Source: Spirochaetota bacterium (lineage in GTDB: Bacteria > Spirochaetota > Brachyspiria > Brachyspirales > JACRPF01). From it: DNA of 64,000 nt. The notes beneath the pieces are model-generated. The model was not told the DNA's origin and ran no database searches. It worked only from the letters and a program-made list of their open reading frames with translations. Below, piece after piece: positions 1,930 through 23,157 of this stretch. Position 1 is the stretch's first letter, and each line of letters opens with the position of its first letter. Where the stretch lies: the NCBI GenBank assembly GCA_038043445.1, contig JBBTBY010000028.1, positions 1 to 64,000 on the forward strand, in the 5' to 3' direction. The translations under genes and the position numbers were made by a program.

Positions 1930-1935
1930 GAACAC

Positions 1936-4566: not shown

Positions 4567-4604
4567 ATGCATACAGAGAAAAATTCATTGTCATAAGGGA
4601 AAAG

Positions 4605-4758: not shown

Positions 4759-4833
4759 TGCGTGATAATGCGGGTGTACCGATAAATGTCTAGCGATAAG
4801 ATAATGTATCCTCTGATACCTTACGGAATTCTA

Positions 4834-4861
4834 TTGACATAATTCCGGCGGGTGATAGAAT
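4834..4861 (+). promoter_or_regulatory. sigma70-type promoter of the CsgG-like/lipoprotein pair
   Basis: TTGACA (4834-4839), 16-nt spacer, TAGAAT (4856-4861). Predicted leader of about 26 nt with GAGGAG at 4882-4887. Confidence 0.6.
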
Positions 4862-4893
4862 CACGAACTACTATTGAGCTTGAGGAGATATCT

Positions 4894-5970: not shown

Positions 5971-5981
5971 GGGAGATGAAA

Positions 5982-6977: not shown

Positions 6978-6979
6978 CG

Positions 6980-7031
6980 CTACATGACCGGCAGATCGCT
7001 CGCACCCATGAGGTATTCATCGATGAAGCGC
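6980..7031. repeat. direct repeat copy 1: duplicated 3' end of gltD
   Basis: These 52 nt match 7965-8016 at 50 of 52 positions (differences at 6991/7976 and 7028/8013). Copy 2 is the genuine 3' end of gltD and begins exactly at its stop codon. The two copies bracket a 985-nt offset holding the HEPN/MNT pair. Confidence 0.9.
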
Positions 7032-7040
7032 ACTCACTCC

Positions 7041-7068
7041 TTGAATTCCGATGGGATTCAGCTATACT
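7041..7068 (+). promoter_or_regulatory. sigma70-type promoter of the HEPN/MNT pair, predicted leaderless
   Basis: TTGAAT (7041-7046), 16-nt spacer, TATACT (7063-7068), then exactly 6 nt to ATG 7075. No ribosome binding site precedes the ATG. The -10 box lies within the in-frame extension from ATG 7051, so 7075 is the likely start. Confidence 0.7.
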
Positions 7069-7074
7069 GACCGC

Positions 7075-7473
7075 ATGAATGAGAACACCGTAGCGAATTG
7101 GATAAGCCTTGCGGAATACGATCTTGCCACCGCTGATTCGATGTTATCGGCAGCGCGGTATCTCTACGTGGCATTTACCTGTCAGCAGGCGATTGAAAAG
7201 GTTCTGAAGGCATATTATGTGTATCGATACGGAAAAACGCCTCCGTATACGCACAATCTGAACAAACTTGCGGAAGAAACCGGTCTTGCTGAGGCTATGA
7301 GCGAAAAGCAGATATCATTCCTTGACTCATTGAACGCTTATTATATTCAATCGCGGTATACTGAAGAAATACAAACTCTTTCGGTATCGTTCACGCACGA
7401 AAGAGCGGTTGCACTTATCGCAGAAATGAAGGAGGTGTACCAATGGCTACGGTCAAAGATAGCGATACGATAA
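7075..7473 (+). CDS. HEPN domain protein (toxin-like partner of the MNT protein)
   Basis: 132-residue all-alpha HEPN protein of the type paired with minimal nucleotidyltransferases. Family signs are 'WISLAEYDLATADSML', 'FTCQQAIEKVLKAYYVY', 'THNLNKLAEETGL' and 'YYIQSRYTEE'. HEPN proteins are often RNases. The classical Rx4-6H motif is not obvious here, so the nuclease site may be degenerate or of the other subgroup. The gene overlaps the MNT gene by 31 nt, indicating translational coupling. The pair sits between copies of the gltD 3' end and is probably acquired. Role as a toxin is inference from family and context. Confidence 0.85.
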   Translation: MNENTVANWISLAEYDLATADSMLSAARYLYVAFTCQQAIEKVLKAYYVYRYGKTPPYTHNLNKLAEETGLAEAMSEKQISFLDSLNAYYIQSRYTEEIQTLSVSFTHERAVALIAEMKEVYQWLRSKIAIR

Positions 7474-7772
7474 GATCGGTGACAGCCCGATATGCATCAT
7501 TGGTGCAGAGTTCTTTTCCTGGTGCCAGGGTATTCTTATACGGATCGTACGCAAAAGGCAGCGCGACCGGTGCAAGCGATATCGATATTGCGGTTGTGCT
7601 CGACATTGCCCATGGGGATAAGATCGAATATGCGACACGATTATTCGGCTTGGCGCGAAAGGTCGATGTTTCGATAGAGCCGTTCTGTGTTTTCCGTGAT
7701 GAATACGATGATCCGCCGGCTGCAAGTATCCTTTCCGAGATCAAACGAACCGCCATACCAGTTGCGGCATGA
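7443..7772 (+). CDS. minimal nucleotidyltransferase (MNT) domain protein, antitoxin-like
   Basis: 109 residues with the polymerase-beta-type nucleotidyltransferase signature: 'FLYGSYAKGSATGASDIDIA' gives the GS pair (residues 34-35) and the two metal-binding aspartates (46 and 48). A third acidic strand is plausible at 'VDVSIEP'. In characterised HEPN/MNT modules the MNT protein neutralises HEPN, sometimes by AMP transfer. A good ribosome binding site (AAGGAGG, 7428-7434) lies 8 nt before ATG 7443. The overlap with the upstream HEPN gene is the usual arrangement. Confidence 0.9.
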   Translation: MATVKDSDTIRSVTARYASLVQSSFPGARVFLYGSYAKGSATGASDIDIAVVLDIAHGDKIEYATRLFGLARKVDVSIEPFCVFRDEYDDPPAASILSEIKRTAIPVAA

Positions 7773-7791
7773 TGACTCGTCGTTCCGAACA

Positions 7792-7815
7792 CTACATGAC
7801 CGGAATGAAACGCAC
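7792..7815. repeat. third, internally deleted copy of the gltD-end repeat
   Basis: 7792-7803 equals the first 12 nt of copy 1 (6980-6991), and 7805-7815 equals its end (7023-7033) with one mismatch. The 31 nt between are missing. It begins 19 nt after the MNT stop, so the toxin-antitoxin pair is closely bracketed by copy 1 and this remnant. Confidence 0.65.
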
Positions 7816-7886
7816 CTCCATCCTGCCGTTCGCCTATGCTCATATGGCAAACATGTTTTCGAGACAATTTTCTATTGAGGTGTGCA

Positions 7887-7964: not shown

Positions 7965-8016
7965 CTACATGACCGACAGATCGCTCGCACCCATGAGGTA
8001 TTCATCGATGAAACGC
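7965..8016. repeat. direct repeat copy 2: native 3' end of gltD
   Basis: Partner of 6980-7031 (50/52 identical). The left boundary coincides with the gltD stop codon. Confidence 0.9.
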
Positions 8017-9416
8017 GCCGTACGGCGGCCTTCGGATATTGCCCAGACGATGAGCGACTGCCCGCGGCGCATGTCGCCTGCGGAGAATACGCCCTTTACG
8101 CTCGTCATGCCGTTCGCGTCGGTCTTCACATTGCCGCGCTCGTCGAACGCCGTGCCCATATCGGTGAGCATGCCTTCCCTCACGGGGCCGAGAAAGCCTA
8201 TCGACAGGAGCACGAGGTCGGCCTCTATGGTGAATGCGCTGTGCGGCACTTCCTTCATTATCGGGGCGCCCTTCGCGTCCTTCTGAGAGAAATCCACGCG
8301 CACACATTCTATCTTCTTTACCGCGCCGTTCATGCCGAGAAAACGCTTCGTGAGCACGGCCCAATCGCGTACGACGCCTTCTTCATGGCTCGATGTTGTC
8401 TTTAAGAGCATGGGGAATTTCGGCCAGGGATACATATCGGTGCGCGAGTCGGGGGGCATGGGAAGCACTTCGATCTGCACCACATGTTTCGCGCCCTGGC
8501 GGTTCGCCGTGCCGACACAGTCGCTCCCGGTATCGCCGCCGCCTATCACGACGACGCTTTTATCCCTTGCATCGATGACGGCCTCGCTGAACGCTTCACC
8601 GGAGATGCGCTTGTTTGATTGCGTGAGATACTGCATGGCGTAATAAATGCCCGACATCTCGCGTCCGGGTATGGCAAGGTCGCGCGGTTTTTTCGCTCCG
8701 CCGGCGAGGCACACCGCGTCGAATTCGGCGGTGAGCTTCGATGCGGGGTATGCCGGCGATCCGACGTCGGTGCCGGTGACGAATGATATCCCTTCTTTTG
8801 TGAGGAGATCGATGCGGCGGTCGAGCACCCATTTCTCGAGCTTGAAGTCGGGTATGCCGTAGCGCATGATACCGCCGGCGAGCTTTTCCTTCTCGAACAC
8901 GGTCACCGTATGACCTGCGCGATTGAGCTGTGATGCACACGCTATGCCTGAGGGGCCGGACCCGACAACGGCGACCTTCTTTCCCGTTCTCTGTACGTGC
9001 GGACGCGGCGTTATGATGCCTTGGCGGAACGCATACTCTCTGATGCCGAGCTCATTTTCGCGTATCGATACCGCCGCGTGGTTGATGCCGAGTACGCAGG
9101 AATATTCGCACGGGGCGGGACAGACACGGCCGGTCACTTCGGGGAGATTATTCGTCGAATCGAGGAGCTCGAAGGCGCGGCGGTGGTCGCCCATCATCAT
9201 GCGGTCGTTCCATTCCGGTATGATGTTGCCTATGGGGCAGGCCCAGTGGCAGAACGGTATCCCGCAGTCCATGCAGCGCGACGTCTGCGCCGTCGTTTCC
9301 TCGACCGAGCGTTCAAGTGCGACGTGTCTGTAATCCTTAAGGCGTTCGTACACCGGGCGGTATTCCTCGTGACGGCGGCCTATCTTCAGGAACGCATGCA
9401 CATCCTTCTTAGCCAT
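7965..9416 (-). CDS. gltD: glutamate synthase small subunit (NAD(P)H-dependent)
   Basis: 483 residues. It takes electrons from NAD(P)H and passes them by FAD and Fe-S clusters to GltB for glutamate synthesis. Features in order are an N-terminal Cys cluster 'RCMDCGIPFCHWACPIGN', a second set ('CPAPCEYSCVLG'), the FAD Rossmann motif 'VVGSGPSGIACASQL', the NAD(P) motif 'VIGGGDTGSDCVG' and the C-terminal FAD segment 'GVFSAGDMRRGQSLIVWAI'. Start 9416 is chosen because AGGAG is 6 nt upstream and it overlaps the gltB end by 8 nt. The final 52 nt are duplicated at 6980-7031. Confidence 0.95.
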   Translation of the reverse strand: MAKKDVHAFLKIGRRHEEYRPVYERLKDYRHVALERSVEETTAQTSRCMDCGIPFCHWACPIGNIIPEWNDRMMMGDHRRAFELLDSTNNLPEVTGRVCPAPCEYSCVLGINHAAVSIRENELGIREYAFRQGIITPRPHVQRTGKKVAVVGSGPSGIACASQLNRAGHTVTVFEKEKLAGGIMRYGIPDFKLEKWVLDRRIDLLTKEGISFVTGTDVGSPAYPASKLTAEFDAVCLAGGAKKPRDLAIPGREMSGIYYAMQYLTQSNKRISGEAFSEAVIDARDKSVVVIGGGDTGSDCVGTANRQGAKHVVQIEVLPMPPDSRTDMYPWPKFPMLLKTTSSHEEGVVRDWAVLTKRFLGMNGAVKKIECVRVDFSQKDAKGAPIMKEVPHSAFTIEADLVLLSIGFLGPVREGMLTDMGTAFDERGNVKTDANGMTSVKGVFSAGDMRRGQSLIVWAISEGRRTARFIDEYLMGASDLSVM

Positions 9417-12400
9417 CGTATGCTCCTGCCAGACGCATCTGCTTATTGACGTCCTTCGTCTCAAGTATGCGCTTGTATTCGAGCGGCATCACCTTGATGA
9501 ACCGTTTCTCTGCCGCGCTGAAATCGTCGAGCGCCGTTCTTGCCGCAGGGCTTCTGGTGTATCGGAAATGATTATGGATGAGGGAACGCACGAGCGTCGT
9601 GTCATAGTCGTTGAGTCCGGAGAGCTCGACCATATCCATATTGCATTTATCCCTGAAGTCGCCGTCGATGTCGTATACATATCCGATGCCGCCGGACATG
9701 CCCGCGGCGAAATTGCGTCCTGTCCTGCCGAGAATGACCACGCGTCCGCCGGTCATGTATTCAAGGCCGTGATCGCCCACGCCTTCGACGACGGCATAGA
9801 CGCCGGAATTACGTATGCAGAACCGCTCGCCGGCAACGCCGCGTATGTACGCCTCGCCGCGTATGGCGCCGTAGAACGTCGTGTTCCCGATGATGATATT
9901 TTTCGCGCTGTCGTATGAAGCCTGCTTCGGCGGATAGATGATGATGCGCCCGCCGAAAAGCCCCTTGCCGACATAGTCGTTCGCCATGCCCTCAAGTTCG
10001 AAGGTGATGCCGTTGGTGAGGAAGGCCCCGAAACTCTGGCCGGCGATGCCGGTGAAACGGGCATGTATCGTGTCGTCGGGAAGCCCTTCCTCGCCGACAC
10101 GCTTGCAGACCTCGCCCGAGAGCATGGCGCCTGTCGTGCGGTTCACATTGCGTATCGGGAGCTCGATAGAAACGGCCTTCTGTTCGTTAAGCGCGCTTGC
10201 CGCTTTTTCGATGAGCGTCCTGTCAAGCACGTTCTCGATGCCGTGGTCCTGCATTATCGTTCTGCGAACGGCGACGTTCTTCGGCACGTCCGGGCGATAG
10301 AATATGCGCGAGAAGTCTATACCCTTCGCTTTCCAGGGGAGTATGGCGGTATTCGTTTCAAGGAGGTCGCTCCGCCCGATGAGCTCGTCGATGCTTTTTA
10401 CGCCGAGTGCGGCCATTTCCTCGCGTGCGTTCTCCGCGATGTAGGTGAAGAAATTGACGAGATGATCGACCTTCCCGCGGAAGCGCCGTTCGAGGAGTTC
10501 GTCCTGTGTGGCGACGCCGACCGAACAATTATTGAGATGGCAATGCCTGAGCATGACGCAGCCGAGCACGATAAGCGCGCTCGTGGCGAATCCGTATTCC
10601 TCCGCACCGAGCATGGCGGCGATGACAAGGTCGCGCCCCGTGCGTATCTGGCCGTCGGTCTGGAGGCGCACACGGCTCCTCAAGTCGTTCATGACAAGTG
10701 TCTGATGCGTTTCGGCGAGCCCGAGCTCCCACGGGAGCCCCGCGTGTTTTATCGAGCTTAACGGCGAAGCGCCGGTACCGCCGTCGCCGCCGGCGATGAG
10801 TATCATATCCGCATGGCCTTTTGCCACACCGGCAGCAATGGTGCCGACACCAATCTCGGACACGAGCTTTACGCTTATGCGTGCCGATGGATTAACGTTC
10901 TTGAGATCGAAGATGAGCTGCGCGAGGTCCTCTATGGAATAGATGTCGTGATGCGGGGGAGGGGATATCAGCGTTACCCCCTCGGTGGTGTAGCGCGTAC
11001 GTGCTATCACCGCATTGACCTTATGGCCGGGGAGCTGTCCGCCCTCGCCGGGCTTGGCGCCCTGCGCAATCTTTATCTGCAGTTCATCCGCGTTGATGAG
11101 ATAATTCGTCGTTACGCCGAAACGTCCGCTCGCCACCTGCTTTATCGCGCTCCGGCGCGAATCGCCGTTGGGGAGTTTCGTGAAACGCGCGGGGTCCTCG
11201 CCGCCCTCACCGGTGTTCGACATCCCGCCGATGCGGTTCATGGCAATGGCTATCGATTCATGCGCGCCGCGGCTTATCGAGCCGAAGCTCATCGCACCGG
11301 TGACGAATCGCCTGGTGATGTTCTTCGCAGGCTCAACATCCGAGAGCGCTATCGCCTTCGTCTTTTTGAACATGAACATGCCGCGGAGCGTGCCCGCATT
11401 CTTCGACTGATCGTTGATGAGTGCGGCGAATTCCTTATAGCGCGCGTAATTGCCGGTGCGTGTGGCTTCCTGTATAGCCGCTATCGTCTCGGGGTTCCAG
11501 AGATGATATTCACCGTCGCGCCGCCATTGATAGAGTCCGCCGCTCACGGTCTTCTTCGCTATGCCGTATGCGGTCGTGTGCCGCATGAGCGTCTCTTCGG
11601 CGATGGTATCGAAGGTGATGCCGCCGATGCGCGAGACGGTTCCCGCGAAACAGCGTTCTATCACTTCCGGGCCTACACCGAGCGCCTCGAATATCTGCGC
11701 GCCGCGATAGCCCTGCAGGGTGGATATGCCCATTTTCGAGAATACTTTGAACAAGCCCTTCTTTATCGCTTTGATATAATTGTACACCGCTTTGGCATCA
11801 TCGATGGGTACGGCGAAATCCTTTACCGCGTGGCGCACCGCTTCGTAGGCGAGATAGGGATTGACGCAGTCCGCGCCGTAGCTGAAAAGAAGTGCGAAGT
11901 GATGGACCTCGCGCGGCTCGCCTGTTTCGAGTATGAGATCGGTCTTTACACGAAGTGAAACCTTTACCAGATGATGATGCACCGCCCCGACGGCGATGAG
12001 CGCGGGAATGGGGGCGTTATCCGCGTTCACGGAACGGTCCGAAAGGATGATGAACGATATGCCGTCGCGTACGGCCTGTTCAGCTTCGGCGCAGACACGG
12101 TCAAGCGCCGCTTTGAGATCGTTCTTCTTTGCATCGAACACTATCGGTATACGCCGGGTGCTGAATCCGCGCGATGCTAATGTCTCCAGCCTGAGCATTT
12201 CCTCATCGGTAAGGATGGGGTTCTCAAGCACAAGACGCTTTGCATGCTCCGGGCTTTCTTCGAGGATATTGCCCTGCGGCCCGAGATAGCTTTTCATGCT
12301 CATCACTATCTCTTCGCGTATCGGGTCTATCGGCGGGTTCGTTACCTGCGCGAAGAGCTGCTTGAAATACGTGTAGATATGATGCGGCATGTTCGACAGC

Positions 12401-13902
12401 ACCGCGGGCGGCGTATCATTACCCATGGAGCCCACCGGCTCCTCAGCGTTCTCCGCCATGGGCTTCATGATGATACGCATGTCCTCGCGCGTGTAGCCGA
12501 ATGCCTTGAACTGCGTCACCGCATTGTCGATGGCAGCCGGTGTTTTTGCTGCCGGCGGGATGTCGCTGAAGAGTATCGTGTTCGCCGTCCATTCGCTGTA
12601 GGGCTTCTGGGAAGCGACGGTATCCTTCACCTCGGCATCATCGATGATGCGACCTTTTGCGGTATCGACGAGGAATATCTTTCCCGGTTCTATGCGCCCT
12701 GAAACGGCGATATCCTCCGGCGGTATATCGAGCACGCCGACCTCGGAAGCCATGACCACCATGCCGCTCTTTGTCTGTATGTAGCGCGCCGGGCGCAGGC
12801 CATTACGGTCGAGGAGCGCGCCCACTTCGGTGCCGTCGCTGAACGCAAGCGCAGCGGGCCCATCCCACGGCCCCATGAGCAAGGCGTGATAGAGATAGAA
12901 ATCCTTAAGCTTCTTATCGATAAGCTTATTATTCTCCCATGCCGGGGGGACGAGCATCATCATCGCATGCGCGAGCGAGCGTCCCGAGAGGAGCAGGAGC
13001 TCGAAGGCATTATCGAGCGCGGCGGAATCGCTGCCGCCGGGGACGATGAGCGGGGAGAGATGCTTTATCCTGTCGCCGAAGAGCGGGCTCTGTATCACCT
13101 GTTCGCGCGAACGCATCCAGTTGACGCTGCCCTGCAGGGTGTTTATCTCGCCGTTGTGCGCGAGATAGCGGAAGGGCTGTGCAAGGTCCCAGGTGGGGAA
13201 GGTGTTGGTGCTGTAGCGGGAATGTACGATGGCGATCGCGCTTTCTATCGACGGGTCGGAAAGCTCGGGGAAGAATTTCTCCATCTGATCGGGCATGAGA
13301 AGCCCTTTGTAGGAGAAGGTGCGGCAGGATAGATTCGTTATATAGAAGAACTTTTTCTGTTCAATGGATGAAGCGCGTACTGTATTTTCCGCCATCTTCC
13401 TGACGAGATACAGTGAACGCTCGAAGGACAGCGTGTCCGTCATAGCCTTGCGGCGCGCGATGAAAGGCTGTTCTATGACCGGTTGGCTTGCCTGCGCGGT
13501 CTTGCCGATCTCTTTGCCGTTGACCGACACCGTTCGCCAGCCAATGATGGAAAGCCCTTCGGCGTTCACGGCACTTTCGAGGGCGCGCTTGCATGTATCG
13601 CGCTCTTCTTTCTTTTGCGGGAGGAAGACGAGGCCGGTACCGTATTCGCCGACAGCGGGGAGTGAGAATCCGGCGTCCGCGGATACCTTCTCGAAAAAGC
13701 GATGCGGCATCTGCATGAGAATGCCTGCGCCGTCGCCTGTCTTCGGGTCCGCCCCGGTCGCCCCGCGATGCGAGAGACGCCGCAGTACTTCAAGGCCCTG
13801 CGATACTATCGTGCGGGAACGGCGTCCCTGAATATCGCAGACGAAGCCCACGCCGCAGCTGTCGTGCTCGAATGCCGGATCGTAGAGGCCGTGAGTACTC
13901 AT
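9409..13902 (-). CDS. gltB: glutamate synthase large subunit
   Basis: 1,497 residues, the normal length for bacterial GOGAT large subunit. It converts glutamine plus 2-oxoglutarate to two glutamates. The class II glutaminase domain begins at 'HDSCGVGFV' (catalytic Cys15 after removal of a short propeptide). The central and FMN-binding barrel carries 'GAKPGEGGQLPGHKV' and the 3Fe-4S cysteines 'CVMLRHCHLNNCSVGVATQ'. The C-terminal beta-helix has 'GGRVVILGRTGRNFAAGMSGG'. AAGGA precedes the ATG. It lies 48 nt after the PEP-synthase-like gene on the same strand, so co-transcription is possible. It overlaps gltD by 8 nt. Confidence 0.97.
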   Translation of the reverse strand: MSTHGLYDPAFEHDSCGVGFVCDIQGRRSRTIVSQGLEVLRRLSHRGATGADPKTGDGAGILMQMPHRFFEKVSADAGFSLPAVGEYGTGLVFLPQKKEERDTCKRALESAVNAEGLSIIGWRTVSVNGKEIGKTAQASQPVIEQPFIARRKAMTDTLSFERSLYLVRKMAENTVRASSIEQKKFFYITNLSCRTFSYKGLLMPDQMEKFFPELSDPSIESAIAIVHSRYSTNTFPTWDLAQPFRYLAHNGEINTLQGSVNWMRSREQVIQSPLFGDRIKHLSPLIVPGGSDSAALDNAFELLLLSGRSLAHAMMMLVPPAWENNKLIDKKLKDFYLYHALLMGPWDGPAALAFSDGTEVGALLDRNGLRPARYIQTKSGMVVMASEVGVLDIPPEDIAVSGRIEPGKIFLVDTAKGRIIDDAEVKDTVASQKPYSEWTANTILFSDIPPAAKTPAAIDNAVTQFKAFGYTREDMRIIMKPMAENAEEPVGSMGNDTPPAVLSNMPHHIYTYFKQLFAQVTNPPIDPIREEIVMSMKSYLGPQGNILEESPEHAKRLVLENPILTDEEMLRLETLASRGFSTRRIPIVFDAKKNDLKAALDRVCAEAEQAVRDGISFIILSDRSVNADNAPIPALIAVGAVHHHLVKVSLRVKTDLILETGEPREVHHFALLFSYGADCVNPYLAYEAVRHAVKDFAVPIDDAKAVYNYIKAIKKGLFKVFSKMGISTLQGYRGAQIFEALGVGPEVIERCFAGTVSRIGGITFDTIAEETLMRHTTAYGIAKKTVSGGLYQWRRDGEYHLWNPETIAAIQEATRTGNYARYKEFAALINDQSKNAGTLRGMFMFKKTKAIALSDVEPAKNITRRFVTGAMSFGSISRGAHESIAIAMNRIGGMSNTGEGGEDPARFTKLPNGDSRRSAIKQVASGRFGVTTNYLINADELQIKIAQGAKPGEGGQLPGHKVNAVIARTRYTTEGVTLISPPPHHDIYSIEDLAQLIFDLKNVNPSARISVKLVSEIGVGTIAAGVAKGHADMILIAGGDGGTGASPLSSIKHAGLPWELGLAETHQTLVMNDLRSRVRLQTDGQIRTGRDLVIAAMLGAEEYGFATSALIVLGCVMLRHCHLNNCSVGVATQDELLERRFRGKVDHLVNFFTYIAENAREEMAALGVKSIDELIGRSDLLETNTAILPWKAKGIDFSRIFYRPDVPKNVAVRRTIMQDHGIENVLDRTLIEKAASALNEQKAVSIELPIRNVNRTTGAMLSGEVCKRVGEEGLPDDTIHARFTGIAGQSFGAFLTNGITFELEGMANDYVGKGLFGGRIIIYPPKQASYDSAKNIIIGNTTFYGAIRGEAYIRGVAGERFCIRNSGVYAVVEGVGDHGLEYMTGGRVVILGRTGRNFAAGMSGGIGYVYDIDGDFRDKCNMDMVELSGLNDYDTTLVRSLIHNHFRYTRSPAARTALDDFSAAEKRFIKVMPLEYKRILETKDVNKQMRLAGAYDG

Positions 13903-13950: not shown

Positions 13951-16521
13951 TTATTTCAGCCGATAGCAGATGACCTTCTGCTCCTGGGCGTCGGCGGCTA
14001 CACCGATGCCTTTTGCGTTCGTCGTATCGATGACCCTGATGACATCCTTCCATTTCGCGCGTGACGGCACCAGTTCTTCCAGTATGGAGGGCGAGCCCTC
14101 AAAGAACGTATGGTTGAAGAAACTGTCCGCCTGCCGCGGGAAAAGGGCGAGATAGAGCATATCCCATTCCACGAGCTCGTTCAAGAAATGCGTTCCGAGC
14201 GATACATCGGGGACAAGGTCTTCGCGCATCATCACGAGTTCACAGAGTATCGTCGTCCTGTTTATCTCGGGGAATGTCACCGGTATGCCGAGTTCGGGTG
14301 AGCTTGTGCCCCAGCGCCCGGGGCCGATGAGCATGACATGCATGCCGACCGGGGTGAGCCTGTTTATCTCGCCGATGGCATGCGCTATCTCGTAGCGTTC
14401 GCGTTCGGGAAGTTCGCTGTATTTCTCGGGCACGATATAGATGATGCGCCCGATGCGCGACATGCGGCTCTGGCCGACGACGGCCGAGCGCGCCTGCATG
14501 ATGATATCGTCGTGAGCGACCTCTATCGCGGGGATCTTGGCGACATCGGCACCCTTTACCTGGAGCGGGCGGCATTGCACGAGATTGATGCGATAGTTCT
14601 TCTCCGCATCGAAGTTGGCCGTATATTCTATATCCACGGGATAATCATACGCCCCCTGCAGGATCGAGAGCATATCGCGCATATCCTTGGCGAATGGTGT
14701 CGATGAAAGCAGCGTATCGAACGTAAGCACGCGGTCGGTGCGAGATGAGCTTCTCTCCGATGTGCCGGTCGTGGTGAAAAGATCGAGCATCGCTTCCGGG
14801 ACGGCGCCTGCGATGTCGGTGAAATATCCCGACACGAGCTGATTGGCCTCAAGATCGAGATAGTCGACCTTGCGCTGCGAGTATTGGCGTACCGCATCGA
14901 AGCTCGCTTCCGGGCGGCGTGATGGATCGTTCAGTGCGACAAGCCGCGTATAGTCATCGTCCGCGCGATTAACGGCACGCGTGCCGAGGCCGAAGACGAG
15001 ACGGAGCACGCCCGCTTTCGGATCTATGCCGCGATTCCATACGAACGGATTGAACGAGAAGCCGACACCGGCCATGGACGGGTAGTAATGTCTGCCGTAT
15101 GCATCGCCGGATACGCGCATGACGAGGAGCGCCATCTGCTCGTCCTTGTCCAGAAGGCCGCGGCTTGCGCGGTAGCTCAACGCGCGTTCGCCCATGGAGC
15201 TCGCGTAGATGGAGCGCACCGCCGCGAGGAAATCCTCAAGACGGCGTTCGAGCGGCCCCTGATTGGCGCAGAACACGCTCTCGTATTTACCGGCGAATGA
15301 ATTGCCGAAATTATCCTCAAGGAGAGAACTGGACCGTACGATGAACGGCGATTGGCCGAAATGATCTATCATCTTTCGGAAACGCTCGACTATGTAGTCG
15401 GTGAACCGCCCGGTGAGTATCCTCCGCCGCGCCTCCTCGGCGCCTTCGAGGAAACGTTCCGGGTCGCGCTGCTTCTGGCGCATCCACCACACGCCGTTGC
15501 GCACGAGGAACGTGTAGAACACGTCCGAACCGATAAAGAAGCTGTCATGCGTTTCGAGTACATCCATGAAACGGGCATCGGTCTTCCTGAGTATGGAGCG
15601 CGCGAGGAGCATGCCGACGGATTTGCCGCCGATGAGGCCTGAGCCGATCATTCGCTTGGCGATGGCGAGCACATCCTCGAGCGTCATGTACTTGCCGACG
15701 AGCGAAAGTATCTTCTCGTCGCGCGATATTATCATACGGCAAAGCTGCGTGAACACCGCGTTCACGCGGTCTATGCGGGCGCGTCCGGCACGCACTTCCT
15801 TGAGTATCTCCTCCGCCTCAAGCGCGGTGCGCGCGGAGAAGTCCATCGATTCGTCGATGTCGGTGAGGTCGGCGTCGTTGAGTATATCGGCGATGACGGT
15901 GCTCGATGTTATGGGAGTGAACTCGTCCCTGCGCATCTCATGCAGAAGATGCATGGTCGGTGAATAGCGGTGCTGCACCTTGACGGGACGGACATAGATG
16001 CGTGCGTTATGGCGTATCACATCGAGGAGAAGCTGCGTCGTTTCAGCAATGGGCGTCGTCGCATGCTGCGAGTGGCGGTCGCGGTAGAGGGCGAAATAGG
16101 TTATCGTTTCAAGGTCGTAGAGATAGGGGCAGGTGAGCATGAAGAAATTGCCGAGCATGCGGTCCGAATACCAGTCACCGGCCAGTTCCGAGAGGCAGTC
16201 GAACACGTAGAACGCGCCGCGTCCGCATTTCTCTATCACCGAATGGATGGCGGCTATGAACGTTTCGAAACCTTCTTCGGGTTTGAGCGTATGTATCTCC
16301 GTGCACTGTTCCTGGCCGAGCAGCGCCGCATGGCTTGCGAAGCGGAAGTAGATGAGCTTCTTGCCGGCCTTCATTGCGGCCGCGGCATAGGGGCGGACGA
16401 ACGCCGAATAATCCTCGATGGAGTCGATCTGCCAGACGACATTGTCGCCGGGGATGAGGCCTTTCAATACGCTGTCAAGGCCGCTCATGCCGGTGGATAG
16501 CTTTATGTCTTGGGTGTCCAT
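13951..16521 (-). CDS. KaiC-like plus PEP/pyruvate-binding (PPDK_N) domain protein without the phosphohistidine domain
   Basis: 856 residues in three parts. Residues 8-180 look like a degenerate RecA/KaiC domain ('STGMSGLDSVLKGLIPGD' in place of a proper Walker A, and 'GAFYVFDCLSEL' as a Walker B-like strand). Residues 295-700 are a PEP-synthase-type ATP-grasp domain ('LIGGKSVGMLLARSIL', 'SPFIVRSSSLLEDNFGNSFAGKYESVF', 'MAGVGFSFNPF'). The last 150 residues carry 'LIGPGRWGTSSPELGIPVTF' and 'LGTHFLNELVE'. I see no TGGxTSHAAI phosphohistidine motif and no PEP-binding barrel, so this is not a working PEP synthase. The likely activity is ATP-dependent phosphoryl or pyrophosphoryl transfer to an unknown target. 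Confidence 0.75.
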   Translation of the reverse strand: MDTQDIKLSTGMSGLDSVLKGLIPGDNVVWQIDSIEDYSAFVRPYAAAAMKAGKKLIYFRFASHAALLGQEQCTEIHTLKPEEGFETFIAAIHSVIEKCGRGAFYVFDCLSELAGDWYSDRMLGNFFMLTCPYLYDLETITYFALYRDRHSQHATTPIAETTQLLLDVIRHNARIYVRPVKVQHRYSPTMHLLHEMRRDEFTPITSSTVIADILNDADLTDIDESMDFSARTALEAEEILKEVRAGRARIDRVNAVFTQLCRMIISRDEKILSLVGKYMTLEDVLAIAKRMIGSGLIGGKSVGMLLARSILRKTDARFMDVLETHDSFFIGSDVFYTFLVRNGVWWMRQKQRDPERFLEGAEEARRRILTGRFTDYIVERFRKMIDHFGQSPFIVRSSSLLEDNFGNSFAGKYESVFCANQGPLERRLEDFLAAVRSIYASSMGERALSYRASRGLLDKDEQMALLVMRVSGDAYGRHYYPSMAGVGFSFNPFVWNRGIDPKAGVLRLVFGLGTRAVNRADDDYTRLVALNDPSRRPEASFDAVRQYSQRKVDYLDLEANQLVSGYFTDIAGAVPEAMLDLFTTTGTSERSSSRTDRVLTFDTLLSSTPFAKDMRDMLSILQGAYDYPVDIEYTANFDAEKNYRINLVQCRPLQVKGADVAKIPAIEVAHDDIIMQARSAVVGQSRMSRIGRIIYIVPEKYSELPERERYEIAHAIGEINRLTPVGMHVMLIGPGRWGTSSPELGIPVTFPEINRTTILCELVMMREDLVPDVSLGTHFLNELVEWDMLYLALFPRQADSFFNHTFFEGSPSILEELVPSRAKWKDVIRVIDTTNAKGIGVAADAQEQKVICYRLK

Positions 16522-17465: not shown

Positions 17466-17948
17466 ATGCGTAAGTTAAAGATATATCTTGACACGTCAAT
17501 AATCAGTAATCTGTTCGCTGATGATCGACTTGACTGGAAACAAACGACGAATGAGTTATTTGATGCAGTGTTGCCAACGGGCGAGTATGAGTTTTATCTA
17601 TCAGATGTCGTGATTCGTGAGATTAATAAAACGAACGATGCTGCCCTGCGTGAACGAATGATGAATGCGGCAAAGAATAAAAACATTACAATGGTGCACT
17701 ATAATGAATTTGAGGTGCTGTCACTGGCGAAGCAATACATTTCCGAGGGTGCATTGCCGCCGAGATCAGTTGATGATTCACTGCATGTTGCGATAGCGAC
17801 AATATCGGGCATGGATATTTTACTGAGTTGGAATTATCGACATTTATCAAATATTGAGCGTGAGCGTAAACTGCATACAGTAAATATCAATGAGGGCTAT
17901 ACGCTGCCGCTGCGCATCACAAATCCGCTGGAGGTTATCCATGACTGA
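17466..17948 (+). CDS. PIN-domain protein (VapC-like toxin)
   Basis: 160-residue PIN-domain protein, the family of Mg-dependent RNases that includes VapC. The acidic positions are present: D9 ('YLDTSIISNLF'), E52 ('VVIREINK'), D103/D104 ('SVDDSLHVAIAT') and the 'LLSWNYRHL' strand with N123. It is followed, with an 8-nt overlap, by a 59-residue protein that is its probable antitoxin. Toxin-first order differs from classical vapBC but is known for PIN/small-protein pairs. Base composition is more AT-rich than the surroundings. Target RNA is unknown. Confidence 0.8.
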   Translation: MRKLKIYLDTSIISNLFADDRLDWKQTTNELFDAVLPTGEYEFYLSDVVIREINKTNDAALRERMMNAAKNKNITMVHYNEFEVLSLAKQYISEGALPPRSVDDSLHVAIATISGMDILLSWNYRHLSNIERERKLHTVNINEGYTLPLRITNPLEVIHD

Positions 17949-18120: not shown

Positions 18121-18221
18121 TTGTTAAACAGGCGTGTGTCGACCGTTCGTCCGCGAGGCTTCACTATTCGCTGCGTCGCCGCGAGCGCTGTTCTTCATGC
18201 ATTCGATATTCGCAATATCGG

Positions 18222-18250
18222 TTGATTTTTACCCGCCGGTGCGGTACTAT
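18222..18250 (+). promoter_or_regulatory. sigma70-type promoter of the rpoN cluster
   Basis: TTGATT (18222-18227), 17-nt spacer, TACTAT (18245-18250). The leader of about 18 nt contains CAGGAG before GTG 18275. Confidence 0.55.
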
Positions 18251-18274
18251 ACGCATGCAGGAGCGAAAACGCAG

Positions 18275-19645
18275 GTGAAAAACGCCCTTCATTTAAATCT
18301 CAAGCTGAAACAGCAGCTTCGCTTAAGCCCGCAGATGATACAATCCATCGGGCTTTTGACGCTGTCCAATCTTGACCTGCTTGCGCATATAGAGAAAGAG
18401 CTTGCCGAGAACCCGCTCCTTGAAAGCGACGAGAAAGGCAATACGGTCGAGATAGACCAGAACATCATGAACGACCCCGATATGCCGAGCTATGAATGGG
18501 TCGATTACCTCGAGGATTCGTCCGACCTCGGCATGCCGCGCGATAATGACAAGGAAGATTCGAAGCGCCGCTTCATCGAGGGTGGCATTGCCGAGGAAAA
18601 GGAAACGCTTTACGACCATCTCCTTGGCCAACTGCGCATGTCTCTCGGCGATGAGAAGAAGATCGAGCTCGGCGCGAAAGTGCTCGGTTTCATCGATCGT
18701 GAAGGGTATCTCTCCATGTCGAGCGATCTCATCGCGCTTGACCTCAATGAGCCCCGGGAAGATGTCGACAGCATACTTGATCTGATAAAGACGTTCGATC
18801 CGCCCGGTGTCGGCGGGCGCGACCTGAGAGAAGTGCTGCTTCTCGAGCTCGCTGCCTATTCGCCGAGGCAGCCCCTCGCGGAGCGCATCGTCGCCGATCA
18901 CCTCGATGCGCTCTCGCAGAAGGATCATGCGCTTATCGCAGCAACGCTCAATGTCGGCGTCGATGATGTAGCGCGTTCCGCAGCGGTCATCCAGACCCTT
19001 GAGCCGTTCCCCGGCCGTGCGTTCGATACGACGAAAGTGCGGTATATCGTCCCTGATATTCGGATAGATAAAAAGGACGGCGAATGGCACGTTGAGCTCA
19101 TCGATGATTTTCTTCCGGCACTTTCCATAAGCGAGAAGTACAGCGCCATGCTCAAGAAGAGCCCCGGCGAGGACGGGGGGAAATTCGCCTCGGAAAAGCT
19201 GTCGTCCGCATTGGCGCTCATCTACGCGATAGAACAGCGGCGGCGCACGCTCTATAAGACCGGCAAGGCGCTCATCGAACTGCAGCGGGATTTCTTCGAG
19301 CATGGTCCCGAGCATATGAAGCCGCTCCTCCTTCGCGACGTGGCAGGAGCCATAGGCATGAGCGAATCCACGGTGAGCAGGGTGAGCAACAGTAAATATG
19401 TCGAAACATCGTGGGGCATATTCCCGGTCAAATTCTTCTTTTCGGTGTCGGTACGGTCGTCATCGGGAACGGATTCCAAGCAGTCGGTAAAAGAGAAGCT
19501 TCGGCGCATCATTGCCGAGGCCCCGGACAGTCTGTCCGATGAGAAGCTCAAAGCGGTGCTCTCGGAACGGGGTATACATATCGCCCGCCGGACGGTTGCA
19601 AAATATAGAAAAGAGCTTAAAATACTTTCCTCGCGCGACCGCTGA
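18275..19645 (+). CDS. rpoN: RNA polymerase sigma-54 factor
   Basis: 456 residues. The N-terminal activator-interacting region reads 'LNLKLKQQLRLSPQMIQSIG', followed by the core-binding region ('LGAKVLGFIDREGYL') and the DNA-binding part ('MSESTVSRVSNSKYVETSWG' and the RpoN box 'ARRTVAKYR' near the C-terminus). Sigma-54 directs polymerase to -24/-12 promoters and needs AAA+ activators, none of which is encoded here. The GTG start at 18275 gives the family's normal N-terminus and has CAGGAG upstream; the frame continues open upstream but without family similarity. First gene of a cluster with hpf, ptsN, hprK and ptsH. Confidence 0.95.
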   Translation: MKNALHLNLKLKQQLRLSPQMIQSIGLLTLSNLDLLAHIEKELAENPLLESDEKGNTVEIDQNIMNDPDMPSYEWVDYLEDSSDLGMPRDNDKEDSKRRFIEGGIAEEKETLYDHLLGQLRMSLGDEKKIELGAKVLGFIDREGYLSMSSDLIALDLNEPREDVDSILDLIKTFDPPGVGGRDLREVLLLELAAYSPRQPLAERIVADHLDALSQKDHALIAATLNVGVDDVARSAAVIQTLEPFPGRAFDTTKVRYIVPDIRIDKKDGEWHVELIDDFLPALSISEKYSAMLKKSPGEDGGKFASEKLSSALALIYAIEQRRRTLYKTGKALIELQRDFFEHGPEHMKPLLLRDVAGAIGMSESTVSRVSNSKYVETSWGIFPVKFFFSVSVRSSSGTDSKQSVKEKLRRIIAEAPDSLSDEKLKAVLSERGIHIARRTVAKYRKELKILSSRDR

Positions 19646-19719
19646 CAGGATTGTTTCGTGCACGAGTGACGTCGTTCTACAGGTCGCGTACGCATGAACA
19701 TACAACGGAGATACGCACA

Positions 19720-20517
19720 ATGCATGTGAACATCCAGGGACGACACGTGAAAGTGGGCCGCGGGCTCAGGGAACATATCGCCAAGCGCATGGAGAAGTTG
19801 AAATTCTATTCGAAGAAGATAATCGACGCGCATGTGCTTCTCATGAAGGTGAAGTTCGATCATACGGCGGAAGTGACCGTTCTTCTCAATGGGAAATTCT
19901 TCCGCTTCGCAGAGACGGCATCGACGTTCCACGAGGCGATAGACCTGGTGTTCGTCAAGATAGACCGGAAATTGAGGAGCACCAAGGCGATCATCAAGCA
20001 TCATAAGCATGATGCGGGGCTTAAGAACGCCATCGCGCGTGCCGAGCCGGTGGAAGAGACCATTCACATCGATTATGCACCGTTCTCGGATAAACCGATG
20101 GACGAGGTCGAGGCTGTCCTTGAATTCTCGCTCGAGCGCGATCCTGTTTCCGGCTATTTTCCCGTCGTGAAGAACCGCGATATGATGAACGTGCAGGTGT
20201 CGCGCATACCGGTATTCCTTTTCCGCAACGGGAAGGATATCGTGGAATACCGATATCAGCCGGGGAATATCGTTACGACGGTGCTCGGTTTTGACGGCTG
20301 GTACGAACGCATCGTGGCGGTGTCCGGCGGGTCTTCCGTGAATTATGCGAAGAAGAAACGTGCTGTCGTTCCCGAATGCAATGTGGCGACCGCATCGCGC
20401 ACCGTTGCCGCGGGCGGCAGCAAGCGCTTTCTTGTGTTCCGCAACAGCGTGACCGGGTCGATAGAAGCGGTATGCCGGGACGGAAAGAAGATCGTCATCA
20501 TCAGCGAAGGACGCTGA
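19720..20517 (+). CDS. hpf: ribosome hibernation promoting factor, long form with an atypical C-terminus
   Basis: 265 residues. Residues 1-100 are the HPF/RaiA domain ('VNIQGRHVKVGRGLREHIA', 'ADVTVLL'-like strand, 'TFHEAIDLVFVKIDRKLRS'), which binds the ribosomal A/P sites and stops translation in stationary phase. Long HPFs have one short C-terminal dimerisation domain. Here 'KPMDEVEAVLEFSLERD' matches its first half, while 'KRFLVFRNSVTGSIEAVCR' near residue 245 matches its second half, with about 90 residues between. ACGGAG precedes ATG 19720. The gene lies between rpoN and ptsN, as in many Gram-negatives. Confidence 0.85.
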   Translation: MHVNIQGRHVKVGRGLREHIAKRMEKLKFYSKKIIDAHVLLMKVKFDHTAEVTVLLNGKFFRFAETASTFHEAIDLVFVKIDRKLRSTKAIIKHHKHDAGLKNAIARAEPVEETIHIDYAPFSDKPMDEVEAVLEFSLERDPVSGYFPVVKNRDMMNVQVSRIPVFLFRNGKDIVEYRYQPGNIVTTVLGFDGWYERIVAVSGGSSVNYAKKKRAVVPECNVATASRTVAAGGSKRFLVFRNSVTGSIEAVCRDGKKIVIISEGR

Positions 20518-20550
20518 GGCCCCGAACATCCTGGAAGGAGGCGACGTGCG

Positions 20551-21018
20551 ATGAAACTTGTCGACTGCATGGATGAGCGCTCCATCATCCTCAATATAGC
20601 GGAATTGGAAAAGGAAGCGGTACTGAGCCGGATAGTCGCCGTGCTCGCCGAGAACAACCTTATTGCGAATCAGCAGGAAGTGGAGAAGGCCATACTCGCC
20701 CGCGAGCGGCTCATGTCCACCGGTGTGGGGAGCGGGATCGCCATTCCGCACGCAAAAACGGACAAGGTCGACAAGATAACGATAGCCTTTGCCACCTCGA
20801 AGGCCGGGATACGATACAAGGCCGTCGACAAGAAGAATGTGCATGTCATATTCATGCTCATATCTCCCAAAGAGGCGGCGAGCGAGAACCTGAAGGTCCT
20901 CACCATCATCGCGAAGATACTGCGCGGCAATACCGCGCTCACCGAGAAGCTCCTCAAAGCGGAGAACCCCCGCGACGTCATCGATCTTATCGCCAAAGAG
21001 GAAGCCAAGATACAATGA
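20551..21018 (+). CDS. ptsN: PTS IIA-like nitrogen-regulatory protein
   Basis: 155 residues, fructose-type EIIA fold. The phosphorylatable histidine is H67 in 'SGIAIPHAKT'. In PTS-Ntr this protein receives phosphate from a HPr-type protein and regulates rather than transports. A very strong ribosome binding site (GGAAGGAGG) precedes the ATG. It overlaps hprK by 4 nt (ATGA). No EIIB or EIIC is encoded nearby, which supports a purely regulatory role. Confidence 0.93.
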   Translation: MKLVDCMDERSIILNIAELEKEAVLSRIVAVLAENNLIANQQEVEKAILARERLMSTGVGSGIAIPHAKTDKVDKITIAFATSKAGIRYKAVDKKNVHVIFMLISPKEAASENLKVLTIIAKILRGNTALTEKLLKAENPRDVIDLIAKEEAKIQ

Positions 21019-21974
21019 GCCGCGTTTCTATTGAACGCCTCCTTGCGATCAATGACAAGGCCGAGAATACGCTCAAAATGCGTTCGCTCACCGGGACGAC
21101 GGGGTTCGACAATAAACTTGCGAGCTACCACATCAATCGCCCGGGCATGAACCTGTTCGGCTACTTCGATAATTTCGGCTATGACCGTATACAGATATTC
21201 GGCAGGGGAGAGATAGGGTATCTCGCGAAGCTCATTGCCGCGGACGATTACCGCACCATCGATGAGATGTTCTCCTATAAGATACCGCTGTGCGTGTTCA
21301 CGAACAATCAGGAGCCGCCGCCCGCGTTCACCGACCGCGCCCGCGGGCATTCGATACCGGTATTCGTCACCGAGCACTCCACCGGCGACCTCATTGAACG
21401 GCTTACCACTATCCTCGAAGAGGAATTCGCCCCGCACACGACGCTGCACGGCGTGTTCGTGGAAGTGTTCGGTGTCGGCGTTCTCATAAAGGGGAAGAGC
21501 GGCGTGGGGAAGAGCGAAGCGGCGCTTGAGCTCATACAGCGCGGGCACCGCCTCATCGCCGATGACAGCGTCGATTTCCGTGCGCTGCGCGGGAGCATGG
21601 TCATCGGTTCGAGCAATCGCGTGCTCAAATACAATATGGAAGTGCGCGGCATCGGCATCATCAATATCGCGCGTCTGTCCGGCATGTCGGCGATACGCAA
21701 CAAGAAGCGGCTTGAGCTCATCGTTATACTTGAGGACTGGAAAGAGGACAAGGAATATGACAGGACCGGGCTTGAGGACCACACCGAGAGCATTCTCGGC
21801 GTCGAGATACCATCGCTCTGCATACCGGTGCGCCCGGGACGCAATATCCATATCCTTATCGAGACCGCGGCGAAGAACGAGCGGTTGAAGCTGCTTGGGT
21901 ATCACTCCGCAAAGGAATTCAATAAACGCGTTATGCGCCTCTTCGAGGGAGAAGAGGACGATACGGGTTTTTGA
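21015..21974 (+). CDS. hprK: HPr kinase/phosphorylase
   Basis: 319 residues. It phosphorylates and dephosphorylates HPr on the regulatory serine. The P-loop 'GKSGVGKS' is at residues 160-167, followed by 'LIADDSVDFRA' and the family signature 'MEVRGIGIINIARLSG'. The N-terminal HprK domain ('GRGEIGYLAKL') is complete. Length and motifs are normal. It is translationally coupled to ptsN and followed by ptsH after 36 nt. Confidence 0.95.
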   Translation: MSRVSIERLLAINDKAENTLKMRSLTGTTGFDNKLASYHINRPGMNLFGYFDNFGYDRIQIFGRGEIGYLAKLIAADDYRTIDEMFSYKIPLCVFTNNQEPPPAFTDRARGHSIPVFVTEHSTGDLIERLTTILEEEFAPHTTLHGVFVEVFGVGVLIKGKSGVGKSEAALELIQRGHRLIADDSVDFRALRGSMVIGSSNRVLKYNMEVRGIGIINIARLSGMSAIRNKKRLELIVILEDWKEDKEYDRTGLEDHTESILGVEIPSLCIPVRPGRNIHILIETAAKNERLKLLGYHSAKEFNKRVMRLFEGEEDDTGF

Positions 21975-22010
21975 TCCGTGGGACCGATTGAAATAAGGAA
22001 CGGAAGTTTT

Positions 22011-22340
22011 ATGACGCTTACGACGGTACTCGAGGTTAAGAACAGGAACGGGCTCCATACGCGCCCGGCGGGCATGCTCTGCAATATCGCCAACCGTTCG
22101 AAATACGGCGACATCGGGATATTCATGGTGCACAACGGCATGCGTGTCGACGTGAAGAGCATATTGAACGTTCTCACCCTGGGGGCGGTGTTCGGCGCCA
22201 AGGTCGTGCTCGAGATAGAAGGCGAGGATAAGGACAAGCCGATGATGGAAGCCTCGACAAAGGAGATCTCCGAATTCTTTGACTCCGGCTTTGACAACAT
22301 TGCCCCCGATCTTGAAGCGGACGAGGCCGCGGATTATTGA
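22011..22340 (+). CDS. ptsH: HPr phosphocarrier protein with an acidic C-terminal tail
   Basis: 109 residues, about 20 longer than the usual HPr. The active histidine is H16 ('NRNGLHTRPAGML') and the HprK target serine is S50 ('DVKSILNVLTLGA'). The extension after residue 88 is rich in Asp/Glu ('PDLEADEAADY'). ATG 22011 fits the family N-terminus; a GTG at 21978 is an alternative start. EI (ptsI) is not in the window, so how HPr is phosphorylated on His cannot be judged. The neighbouring hprK suggests Ser phosphorylation dominates. Confidence 0.92.
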   Translation: MTLTTVLEVKNRNGLHTRPAGMLCNIANRSKYGDIGIFMVHNGMRVDVKSILNVLTLGAVFGAKVVLEIEGEDKDKPMMEASTKEISEFFDSGFDNIAPDLEADEAADY

Positions 22341-22405
22341 CAGTTGCCGGAACAGGGATTTTTCTTACATTAACGCCGAGCGGATCTCGTACGAGGAGAA
22401 TTGAC

Positions 22406-22729
22406 ATGGGTACTATCGCAGAAACATCGGATGCAGGATTTGAAGCCGACGTGCTCAAGAGCAGCGTGCCTATCCTCGTCGATTTCTGGGCACCGTGGTG
22501 CGGTCCCTGCCGCATGCAGACGCCGATACTCGAGAAACTTGTCCCCCGGTATCAGGGGAAAATAACCTTTCTCAAGCTCAATACCGATGAGAATCAGGAT
22601 ACTGCCGTCAAGCTCGGCATAACGGGCATACCGACGATGATCATCTTCAAAGGCGGCCAGCCGGCGGAACGACTTGTCGGTCTGCGTACCGAAGCACAGC
22701 TCATACAGATCCTCGATGCTATGATCTGA
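22406..22729 (+). CDS. trxA: thioredoxin
   Basis: 107-residue cytoplasmic thioredoxin with redox motif WCGPC (CGPC at 32-35), cis-proline segment 'GIPTMIIF' and normal length. It reduces protein disulphides with electrons from thioredoxin reductase (not in the window). ACGAGGAG lies 7 nt before ATG 22406. The next gene is a close paralogue with a lipoprotein signal. Confidence 0.95.
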   Translation: MGTIAETSDAGFEADVLKSSVPILVDFWAPWCGPCRMQTPILEKLVPRYQGKITFLKLNTDENQDTAVKLGITGIPTMIIFKGGQPAERLVGLRTEAQLIQILDAMI

Positions 22730-22752: not shown

Positions 22753-23157
22753 ATGTTCGTGCGAAATTGTGTGCTCGCGGCTCTGATCGTTCTTGCGCTC
22801 GGCTGCGGAAAAAAGGATGCCGTTGTCAGCGGCGGTGTCATGCCGGTCAGTGCGGCGGCGTTCGATGCCGACGTGCTGAAGAGCACCGCGCCTGTCCTCG
22901 TCGATTTCTGGGCGCCATGGTGCGGTCCCTGCCGCATGCAGGCACCGGTGATAGAGAAGCTCTCTCAGGACGATGCCTATAAAGGGAAAGTGAAATTCAT
23001 CAAGTTCAATGTCGATGATGACAATAAGATCCCGTCATCGTACGGCATTACGGGAATACCGACGCTCATCATATTCAGGAACGGAAAACCGGTCGAGACG
23101 ATGGTGGGCCTGCGCACGGAAGATCAGCTTAGGGCAGCGCTGAATAAGGTGCTATAA
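22753..23157 (+). CDS. thioredoxin-like lipoprotein
   Basis: 134 residues. An N-terminal lipoprotein signal peptide with Cys18 ('LIVLALGC') is followed by a short linker and a full thioredoxin domain (CGPC at 57-60, 'GIPTLIIF'). The domain is strikingly like the preceding trxA (shared 'VDFWAPWCGPCRMQ' and 'MVGLRTE'/'LVGLRTE'), so a tandem duplication with gain of an export signal is likely. It probably works in the periplasm, anchored to a membrane. AGGAGG precedes the ATG. Confidence 0.9.
   Translation: MFVRNCVLAALIVLALGCGKKDAVVSGGVMPVSAAAFDADVLKSTAPVLVDFWAPWCGPCRMQAPVIEKLSQDDAYKGKVKFIKFNVDDDNKIPSSYGITGIPTLIIFRNGKPVETMVGLRTEDQLRAALNKVL

Follow-up and report, generated by a model that had tools for sequence, protein, structure and literature searches.

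The 64,000-nucleotide stretch analysed here (the window) comprises positions 1 to 64,000 of contig JBBTBY010000028.1 from the Spirochaetota assembly GCA_038043445.1 (order Brachyspirales), and it carries a gene in which a KaiC-like domain is fused to a PPDK_N ATP-grasp domain and a conserved C-terminal domain (CTD). The gene is a single open reading frame (ORF) directly upstream of gltB and gltD, which encode the two subunits of glutamate synthase (GOGAT; Table 1). Its stop codon is separated from the gltB start by 48 nt. gltD follows gltB, and its likely start, judged from translation, is an ATG at position 9416 that overlaps the gltB end. An earlier annotation made from the DNA letters alone (the sequence-only reading) had delimited the gene correctly and placed it directly upstream of gltBD, without giving its strand. 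The gene is single-copy in its own genome at E ≤ 0.001.

Table 1 Features of the KaiC–PPDK_N gene and of the adjoining glutamate synthase genes, in window coordinates.
Feature	Positions	Strand	Basis or remark
Whole gene, 856 aa + stop	13951..16521	-	Single ORF; ATG at 16521, stop 13951-13953
N-terminal KaiC/RecA-like domain, aa 5-217, no P-loop	15871..16509	-	Structural match to KaiC; 0/60 homologues with P-loop
Helical linker, aa 218-285	15667..15870	-	DSSP of model
PPDK_N ATP-grasp domain, aa 296-662	14536..15636	-	Pfam; invariant residues
CTD, aa 664-856, predicted swivelling beta/beta/alpha (phosphohistidine-like)	13954..14532	-	Model, low-Z VIA matches, conservation
GPGRWG motif, aa 733-738	14308..14325	-	Conservation across homologues
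G776-T777-H778, H778 the proposed phospho-accepting His	14188..14196	-	60/60 GTH
gltB, glutamate synthase large subunit	9409..13902	-	Pfam GATase_2, Glu_syn_central, Glu_synthase, GXGXG
gltD, glutamate synthase small subunit	7965..9464	-	Pfam Fer4_20 + Pyr_redox_2

A Pfam scan of the 856-residue protein, run to E ≤ 10, identifies the ATP-grasp domain as PPDK_N (PF01326, E = 1e-46, 160 bits). At the same threshold there is no match to the PF00391 His domain, to a phosphoenolpyruvate (PEP)/pyruvate-binding barrel or to KaiC, and the only other match (DUF7620, E = 7.2) was judged to be chance. The protein terminates after the CTD. In a full-length AlphaFold2 model (60 sequences as input, mean pLDDT 85.8, pTM 0.82), the N-terminal domain matches solved KaiC structures with Z of about 20 over about 200 residues at 2.8–3.2 Å. 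It shares the fold of the KaiC ATPases but is a single domain without a P-loop: neither GxxxxGK[ST] nor GK[ST] occurs in the KaiC-like domain of any of the 60 aligned KaiC-type homologues, and the P-loop site is occupied by a conserved GDN[VI]V stretch. When a profile of this domain was compared with PDB sequences, the best match was to replication protein A 32 (E = 0.013), which we took as chance. The sequence-only reading had described a KaiC-like part that has lost its Walker A motif, joined to a PPDK_N domain and followed by no PEP barrel, and these points hold, the KaiC-like assignment through structure though not through Pfam.

The ATP-grasp domain is conserved at the positions expected to handle nucleotide. 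K300, R396, E402, D403, E632, Q649 and R651 are invariant in the 60 KaiC-type homologues, and, with the exception of R651, they are unchanged in all 16 sequences drawn from the three architectures described below. A profile alignment pairs the DIE..Q.RP segment with PEP synthase, and residues 260–660 of the model find their best counterpart among solved structures in the rifampin phosphotransferase ATP-grasp domain (Z = 25.1). Lys22, Arg117 and Thr136 of the latter enzyme are experimentally tested counterparts, according to PMC4844700; we made the pairing of K300 with Lys22 and of R396 with Arg117 by motif. Because none of the 60 homologues has a P-loop and the ATP-grasp residues do not vary, the first nucleotide site (KaiC-like) looks dead and the second (PPDK_N) live. 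The protein thus has the PPDK_N domain of PEP synthase and PPDK but differs from them in lacking PF00391 and the PEP barrel and in carrying an extra N-terminal domain. It resembles the rifampin phosphotransferase RPH-Lm (5hv1, 5hv3) in its ATP-grasp domain, and the catalytic His of RPH-Lm likewise lies in a C-terminal swivel domain, as reported in PMC4844700; it differs in having no rifampin-binding domain between ATP-grasp and CTD and in having the KaiC-like domain in front.

The CTD is about 190 residues long and includes, at residues 733–745 and 775–785, the motifs to which the sequence-only reading had drawn attention. That reading had called for a structure prediction of this block, and the CTD modelled alone from 79 sequences (pLDDT 90.7) resembles swivelling domains at Z of 5–6, with the PPDK His domain among several tied matches. 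The top VIA match is the DRTGG protein AF1212 (Z = 6.0, 107 residues aligned, 3.5 Å). Four PPDK entries (5lu4, 5jvj, 5jvl and 2r82) follow at Z of 5.5–5.7, with 119–122 residues aligned at 3.4–3.7 Å, and place residues 1–196 of the CTD model on PPDK residues 374–510, the central His domain; the N-terminal domain of EI (5woy) gives Z = 5.4 over 106 residues at 3.0 Å. We take the near-top matches to belong to the swivelling beta/beta/alpha class and a few lower ones, such as malyl-CoA lyase, to fall outside it. The full-length model aligns with 5hv3 (rifampin phosphotransferase; Z = 24.4, 389 residues, 4.9 Å, model 225–854) and with the PEP synthase 2ols (Z = 23.2, 359 residues, 4.9 Å, model 288–855). 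The 5hv1 match, with 295 residues aligned, stops at residue 660, and the 5hv3 and 2ols matches hold roughly 65–95 residues more; their ranges, which give the first and last aligned residue only, end within the His domains of the two enzymes.

Within the CTD, DSSP assigns the order strand, strand, helix, strand, short helix, strand, helix, strand and closing hairpin, which we take to fit the PPDK His domain. T777 and H778 open a helix (777–785) between strands 758–762 and 789–793 of the full-length model, and by secondary-structure topology H778 would occupy the place of the catalytic His of PPDK. G776-T777-H778 is present in all 60 KaiC-type homologues. Across the three architectures H778 is kept in 16 of 16 sequences, as are G733, G735, R736, W737, G738, E761, S774, G776, F779 and Y790. 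We also considered whether GPGRWG stands in place of the GG.TSH motif of canonical His domains: in one local profile match PSLGVPV is set against R.LG.PA, an alignment that would leave the domain without a His. H778 is preferred because the order of elements fits and because it is the invariant His. In the receiver-type CTD, two local hhalign matches fall in the expected colinear places, with decoys reaching equal scores in 8 of 150 and 12 of 150 runs. A search of the CTD profile against PDB sequences returned a best E of 0.65. Taken together, the model and the conservation make the CTD a probable, if unproven, divergent phosphohistidine domain.

Scanning one genome for each species gave 136 matches, of which the best 80 were kept. 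All but three of these 80 span nearly the whole query; their identities are 43–62%, and most family members come from metagenome-assembled genomes (MAGs). By record titles they belong to Verrucomicrobia, Kiritimatiellota, Lentisphaerae, Planctomycetes groups, Desulfobacterota, other Deltaproteobacteria, Spirochaetes, Latescibacterota, Hydrogenedentota, Chitinispirillaceae, Omnitrophota, Auribacterota, one betaproteobacterium and Asgard archaea. Named strains with a homologue include Propionivibrio dicarboxylicus DSM 5885, Desulfobotulus alkaliphilus and Pontiella sulfatireligans. In a sample of 61 genomes, the nearest relatives are 69% identical (G001, same family) and 54% identical (G053), and the gene was not found in the remaining genomes of the same order. 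The CTD profile matches 40 of 198 sampled Spirochaetota genomes. A search in plasmids returned three Bacteroidota relatives and two matches to the ATP-grasp domain only.

The PPDK_N–CTD core is common to three architectures, which differ in what is attached to it. In the second, exemplified by WP_041525632.1 of Parabacteroides distasonis, the core and its GPGRWG and G-T/S-H motifs are the same, but a receiver-like domain takes the place of the KaiC-like one; PF00072 matches all three proteins scanned, above cut-off in L231 and L232 and just below it in P. distasonis, and the Prevotella and Phocaeicola proteins were assigned to this form by similarity. The third has the same core with a different N-terminus and a fused C-terminal nucleotidyltransferase (PF01909, NTP_transf_2), which is matched in P0002 and L224 and not in the partly masked L228. 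Both forms also occur beside genes for glutamate dehydrogenase (GDH). The receiver-like form adjoins gdhA in P. distasonis and lies about 250 bp from a GDH gene in Phocaeicola; no GDH gene was found in the stretch fetched for Prevotella. The nucleotidyltransferase-type core adjoins GDH in L224–L228, the best NCBIfam match of the L224 enzyme being GdhA_Arch, below the model cut-off. In one MAG titled Spartobacteria (L029), a nucleotidyltransferase-type gene (4601-7846, minus strand) adjoins a KaiC-type gene (1933-4500, plus strand). In Thermomicrobium roseum (L238:3095-6026) the arrangement is split in two, with a gene for a PEP-utilizing enzyme and, after it, one for a PEP/pyruvate-binding protein. 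The genome to which the window belongs also encodes a second PPDK_N protein (L092; G000:C66:85736-88084), arranged like rifampin phosphotransferase: its His domain comes last, and inspection by eye showed no PEP barrel.

We scored a locus as linked when a gene for GDH, GltB, a close GltD or an archaeal-type glutamate synthase lay within 3 kb. Clustering of the neighbours, with one representative of most clusters scanned, surfaced GltB, GltD, GDH, glutamine synthetases, a Fis-like regulator and NrpR. Linkage is found in 53 of the 80 loci (27 with GDH, 28 with glt and 4 with archaeal-type genes, in overlapping categories) and in 30 of 40 Spirochaetota loci (29 with GDH and 6 with glt), with two further loci at 3.0 and 3.3 kb. 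The Spirochaetota set takes 40 of the 44 places found by the CTD profile; the window itself, G050, G063 and the second place in G113 were omitted, and in G063 a GDH match lies right beside the gene. The two sets are partly dependent (L030 and L235 are the same gene), and Omnitrophota are over-represented. NrpR lies within 5 kb in 10 of the 80 loci and 2 of the 40. An ELFV dehydrogenase match occurs in 140 of 198 Spirochaetota genomes and, since those listed mostly hold one to three, we estimate chance adjacency at well under 1%.

Neither gene order nor partner is fixed. The gene may stand before or after its partner gene, and a FastTree phylogeny containing 49 GDH-only rows (no gltB or gltD) and 27 glt-only rows calls for at least seven partner switches; if the tree holds, the link to GDH or GOGAT has therefore been re-made repeatedly. 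The sequence-only reading had proposed examining the link to gltBD across genomes, and the link proves stronger than it foresaw, with gltBD or gdhA beside relatives in many phyla. The functional link to the glutamate genes is strong, and the family very probably serves glutamate synthesis. At several loci (for example L200:13708-16067), an oxidoreductase-like ORF and a GltD-like ORF (about 30% identity) stand beside GDH; we assume that this pair may be NfnAB, supplying NADPH.

The KaiC-like domain also occurs outside this fusion. Stand-alone copies are found in proteins of about 424–464 residues in 9 of 149 genomes. P0003 (in L006) has Pfam matches to helix-turn-helix (HTH) and cupin domains, the cupin match lying below cut-off, as does that of its KaiC-like domain to PF06745 (E = 7e-4); the L200 copy is similar by eye. 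In four of the nine genomes, all four spirochaetes (G069, G144, G165 and G168), coordinates place this protein's gene just upstream of the KaiC–PPDK_N gene. At L200 the order is regulator (5732-7024, plus strand), KaiC–PPDK_N gene, RecQ-like ORF and GDH. In the remaining five genomes the regulator lies beside glutamate synthase genes in two (L270 and L272) and not in the other three. Because the domain recurs in an HTH–cupin regulator at the same loci, the KaiC-like part is best seen as an input module.

PPDK-derived phosphotransferases are already a known kind of protein. The open-access papers searched yielded no study of the KaiC–PPDK_N–CTD family, and we assign the window protein to none of the known families. 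The nearest studied parallel is VadK (Rv1127c) of Mycobacterium tuberculosis. According to a preprint (PMC12636432), VadK is a PPDK derivative without a PEP domain that autophosphorylates on His422, a residue found by superimposing the protein on PPDK and then verified by mutation and mass spectrometry; it co-precipitates two methylcitrate-cycle enzymes and adjusts flux. The two proteins would share a PPDK-derived ATP-grasp domain, a phosphohistidine domain and the absence of a PEP domain, and VadK, which binds enzymes of its own pathway, is proposed there to be a regulatory histidine (di)kinase. They differ in that the CTD of the window protein is recognized by model resemblance only, in the added KaiC-like domain and in the pathway, which here is glutamate synthesis.

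By analogy, we propose that the window protein is a sensor-coupled phosphohistidine (di)kinase that controls glutamate formation, like VadK in principle, and we put the probability of this reading at about one half. In this mechanism, the PPDK_N domain would bind Mg-ATP and phosphorylate H778 on the mobile, divergent swivelling CTD. Because no PEP/pyruvate domain follows, the phosphoryl group would not be spent on PEP synthesis; it might act as a conformational signal or be handed to a partner. The likeliest partners would be the enzymes encoded next door, glutamate synthase here and GDH in many relatives. The KaiC-like domain, its own P-loop lost, would serve as the signal input that gates phosphorylation, and in related proteins this domain gives way to a receiver-like one (Bacteroidota and some spirochaetes) or to another N-terminal region (the third subfamily). 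The architecture, the invariant residues, the likeness of the model and the genomic linkage are observed; what we infer are the ATP-dependent autophosphorylation, the identity of the target and the signal sensed, and we regard ATP-driven, sensor-gated phosphorylation of H778 acting on GDH or GOGAT as an even bet. The sequence-only reading had suggested that the protein may regulate nitrogen or energy metabolism by phosphorylating a target; we likewise read the protein as most probably a regulator of nitrogen metabolism.

Several observations weigh against this proposal, most of them concerning the CTD. The PPDK matches of the CTD model rank level with those to DRTGG, TRiC apical, RraA and LD-carboxypeptidase entries, and VIA Z scores of 5–6 lie in a range that, according to the tool, may reflect merely a common arrangement. 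A Foldseek search with the CTD model returned nothing at E ≤ 0.001. The canonical motif GG.TSH (searched as GG.[ST][SCT]H) is present in none of the 60 homologues. In hhalign comparisons with the His domains of PPDK, PEP synthase and EI, from which L228 was excluded because it partly reads as X, the CTD reached probabilities of 0.04–1.5%. Column-shuffled decoys equalled or exceeded the true score in 7–19 of 150 runs when the CTD profile was mixed or receiver-type; for the KaiC-type profile they did so in 47 and 63 of 150. A reversed His profile outscored the true one in two of six comparisons, both KaiC-type, with a third within 1 point. The sequence-only reading had held that the His domain is missing and replaced by an uncharacterized block and had named a profile match to such a domain as grounds for abandoning that view. 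No significant profile match emerged, nor any to PF00391 or GG.TSH; that the domain is truly missing is doubtful given a CTD model that resembles swivelling domains and carries an invariant H778.

The remaining adverse points concern the core, the loci and the literature. Two receiver-type proteins lack R651. No GDH or GOGAT gene lies within 3 kb in 27 of the 80 loci and 10 of the 40, and 17 of the 27 have at least 1.5 kb on both sides; two of these 17 have gltB at 4.3 and 6.0 kb, and the other 10 of the 27 have less than 1.5 kb on one side or more. In the open-access papers searched we found no study of any family member and no biochemical or genetic data on one. Two candidate reports were set aside: DVU0246, which belongs to the Desulfovibrio nitrate cluster and whose annotation in PMC4001038 includes a PEP-utilizing mobile domain, was treated as a different protein, and PMC12096838, on vesicle mutants of strain HM13, is not linked to the family.

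The window protein could instead be a small-molecule dikinase, a metabolic enzyme in which phosphate would pass from ATP through H778 to a metabolite bound by the KaiC-like domain, the product being needed wherever glutamate is made. Rifampin phosphotransferase offers a precedent, as its ATP-grasp/His core is adapted to another acceptor (PMC4844700). The catalytic ATP-grasp residues are kept, and the PigC and RedH models give weak ATP-grasp matches below cut-off. We nevertheless consider such a dikinase unlikely, because the N-terminus differs among the three architectures while the link to GDH or GOGAT persists, a change not expected of an acceptor-binding domain, and because the receiver-like domain and the HTH-fused KaiC-like copy point to signalling. 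The P-loop-free KaiC-like domain, together with a CTD whose homology to the His domain is not shown by sequence, would also suit a non-catalytic allosteric partner that binds and modulates GDH or GOGAT directly, its ATP binding reporting energy charge with no phosphotransfer. We give this possibility little weight, as the invariance of K300, R396, E402, D403, E632, Q649 and H778 in both conservation sets suggests catalysis. That the protein is a degenerate PEP synthase beside gltBD by accident is very improbable: PPDK_N is homologous to PEP synthase and one relative is annotated merely as a 'PEP/pyruvate-binding domain-containing protein', but there is no PEP barrel, the CTD has its own conserved motif set, the linkage is far more frequent than our estimate of chance adjacency, and PF00391 proteins of PPDK and EI size are present elsewhere in the genome.

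If the sensor-coupled kinase is extended to the whole family, it would represent a kind of control over nitrogen assimilation that is widespread among bacteria and Asgard archaea, in which interchangeable sensors (a KaiC-like pseudo-ATPase, a receiver-like domain and others) act on one ATP-grasp/phosphohistidine core that sets GDH and GOGAT activity and in which the KaiC-like sensor also feeds a transcription factor at the same locus. We advance this generalization only tentatively and would sooner expect it to fail than to hold. The main route by which nitrogen enters cell material is the formation of glutamate. Were the generalization true, the core would fill the role that PII/GlnE or GarA play in other organisms, and one protein family would steer GDH and GOGAT in Bacteroides-type gut bacteria, spirochaetes, planctomycete relatives, Omnitrophota and Asgard archaea. 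The matching of ammonia assimilation to energy and nitrogen supply in these groups would become testable, and the family would join VadK as a second example of a PPDK-type core converted to signalling, here in modular form.

Further genes lie close by in the window. Positions 18134-22340 hold rpoN, identified by Pfam, followed by ORFs that by eye resemble HPF, PTS EIIA, HprK and HPr. A sigma-54 promoter upstream of the KaiC–PPDK_N gene was sought and rejected: the best candidate has three mismatches, and shuffled sequences do equally well. Two tandem ORFs at 22337-22729 and 22753-23157 appear by eye to be thioredoxin-like, the second with a lipoprotein-like N-terminus, and a small ORF upstream of the gene on the opposite strand (17466-17948, plus strand) resembles, also by eye, a PIN-domain protein.

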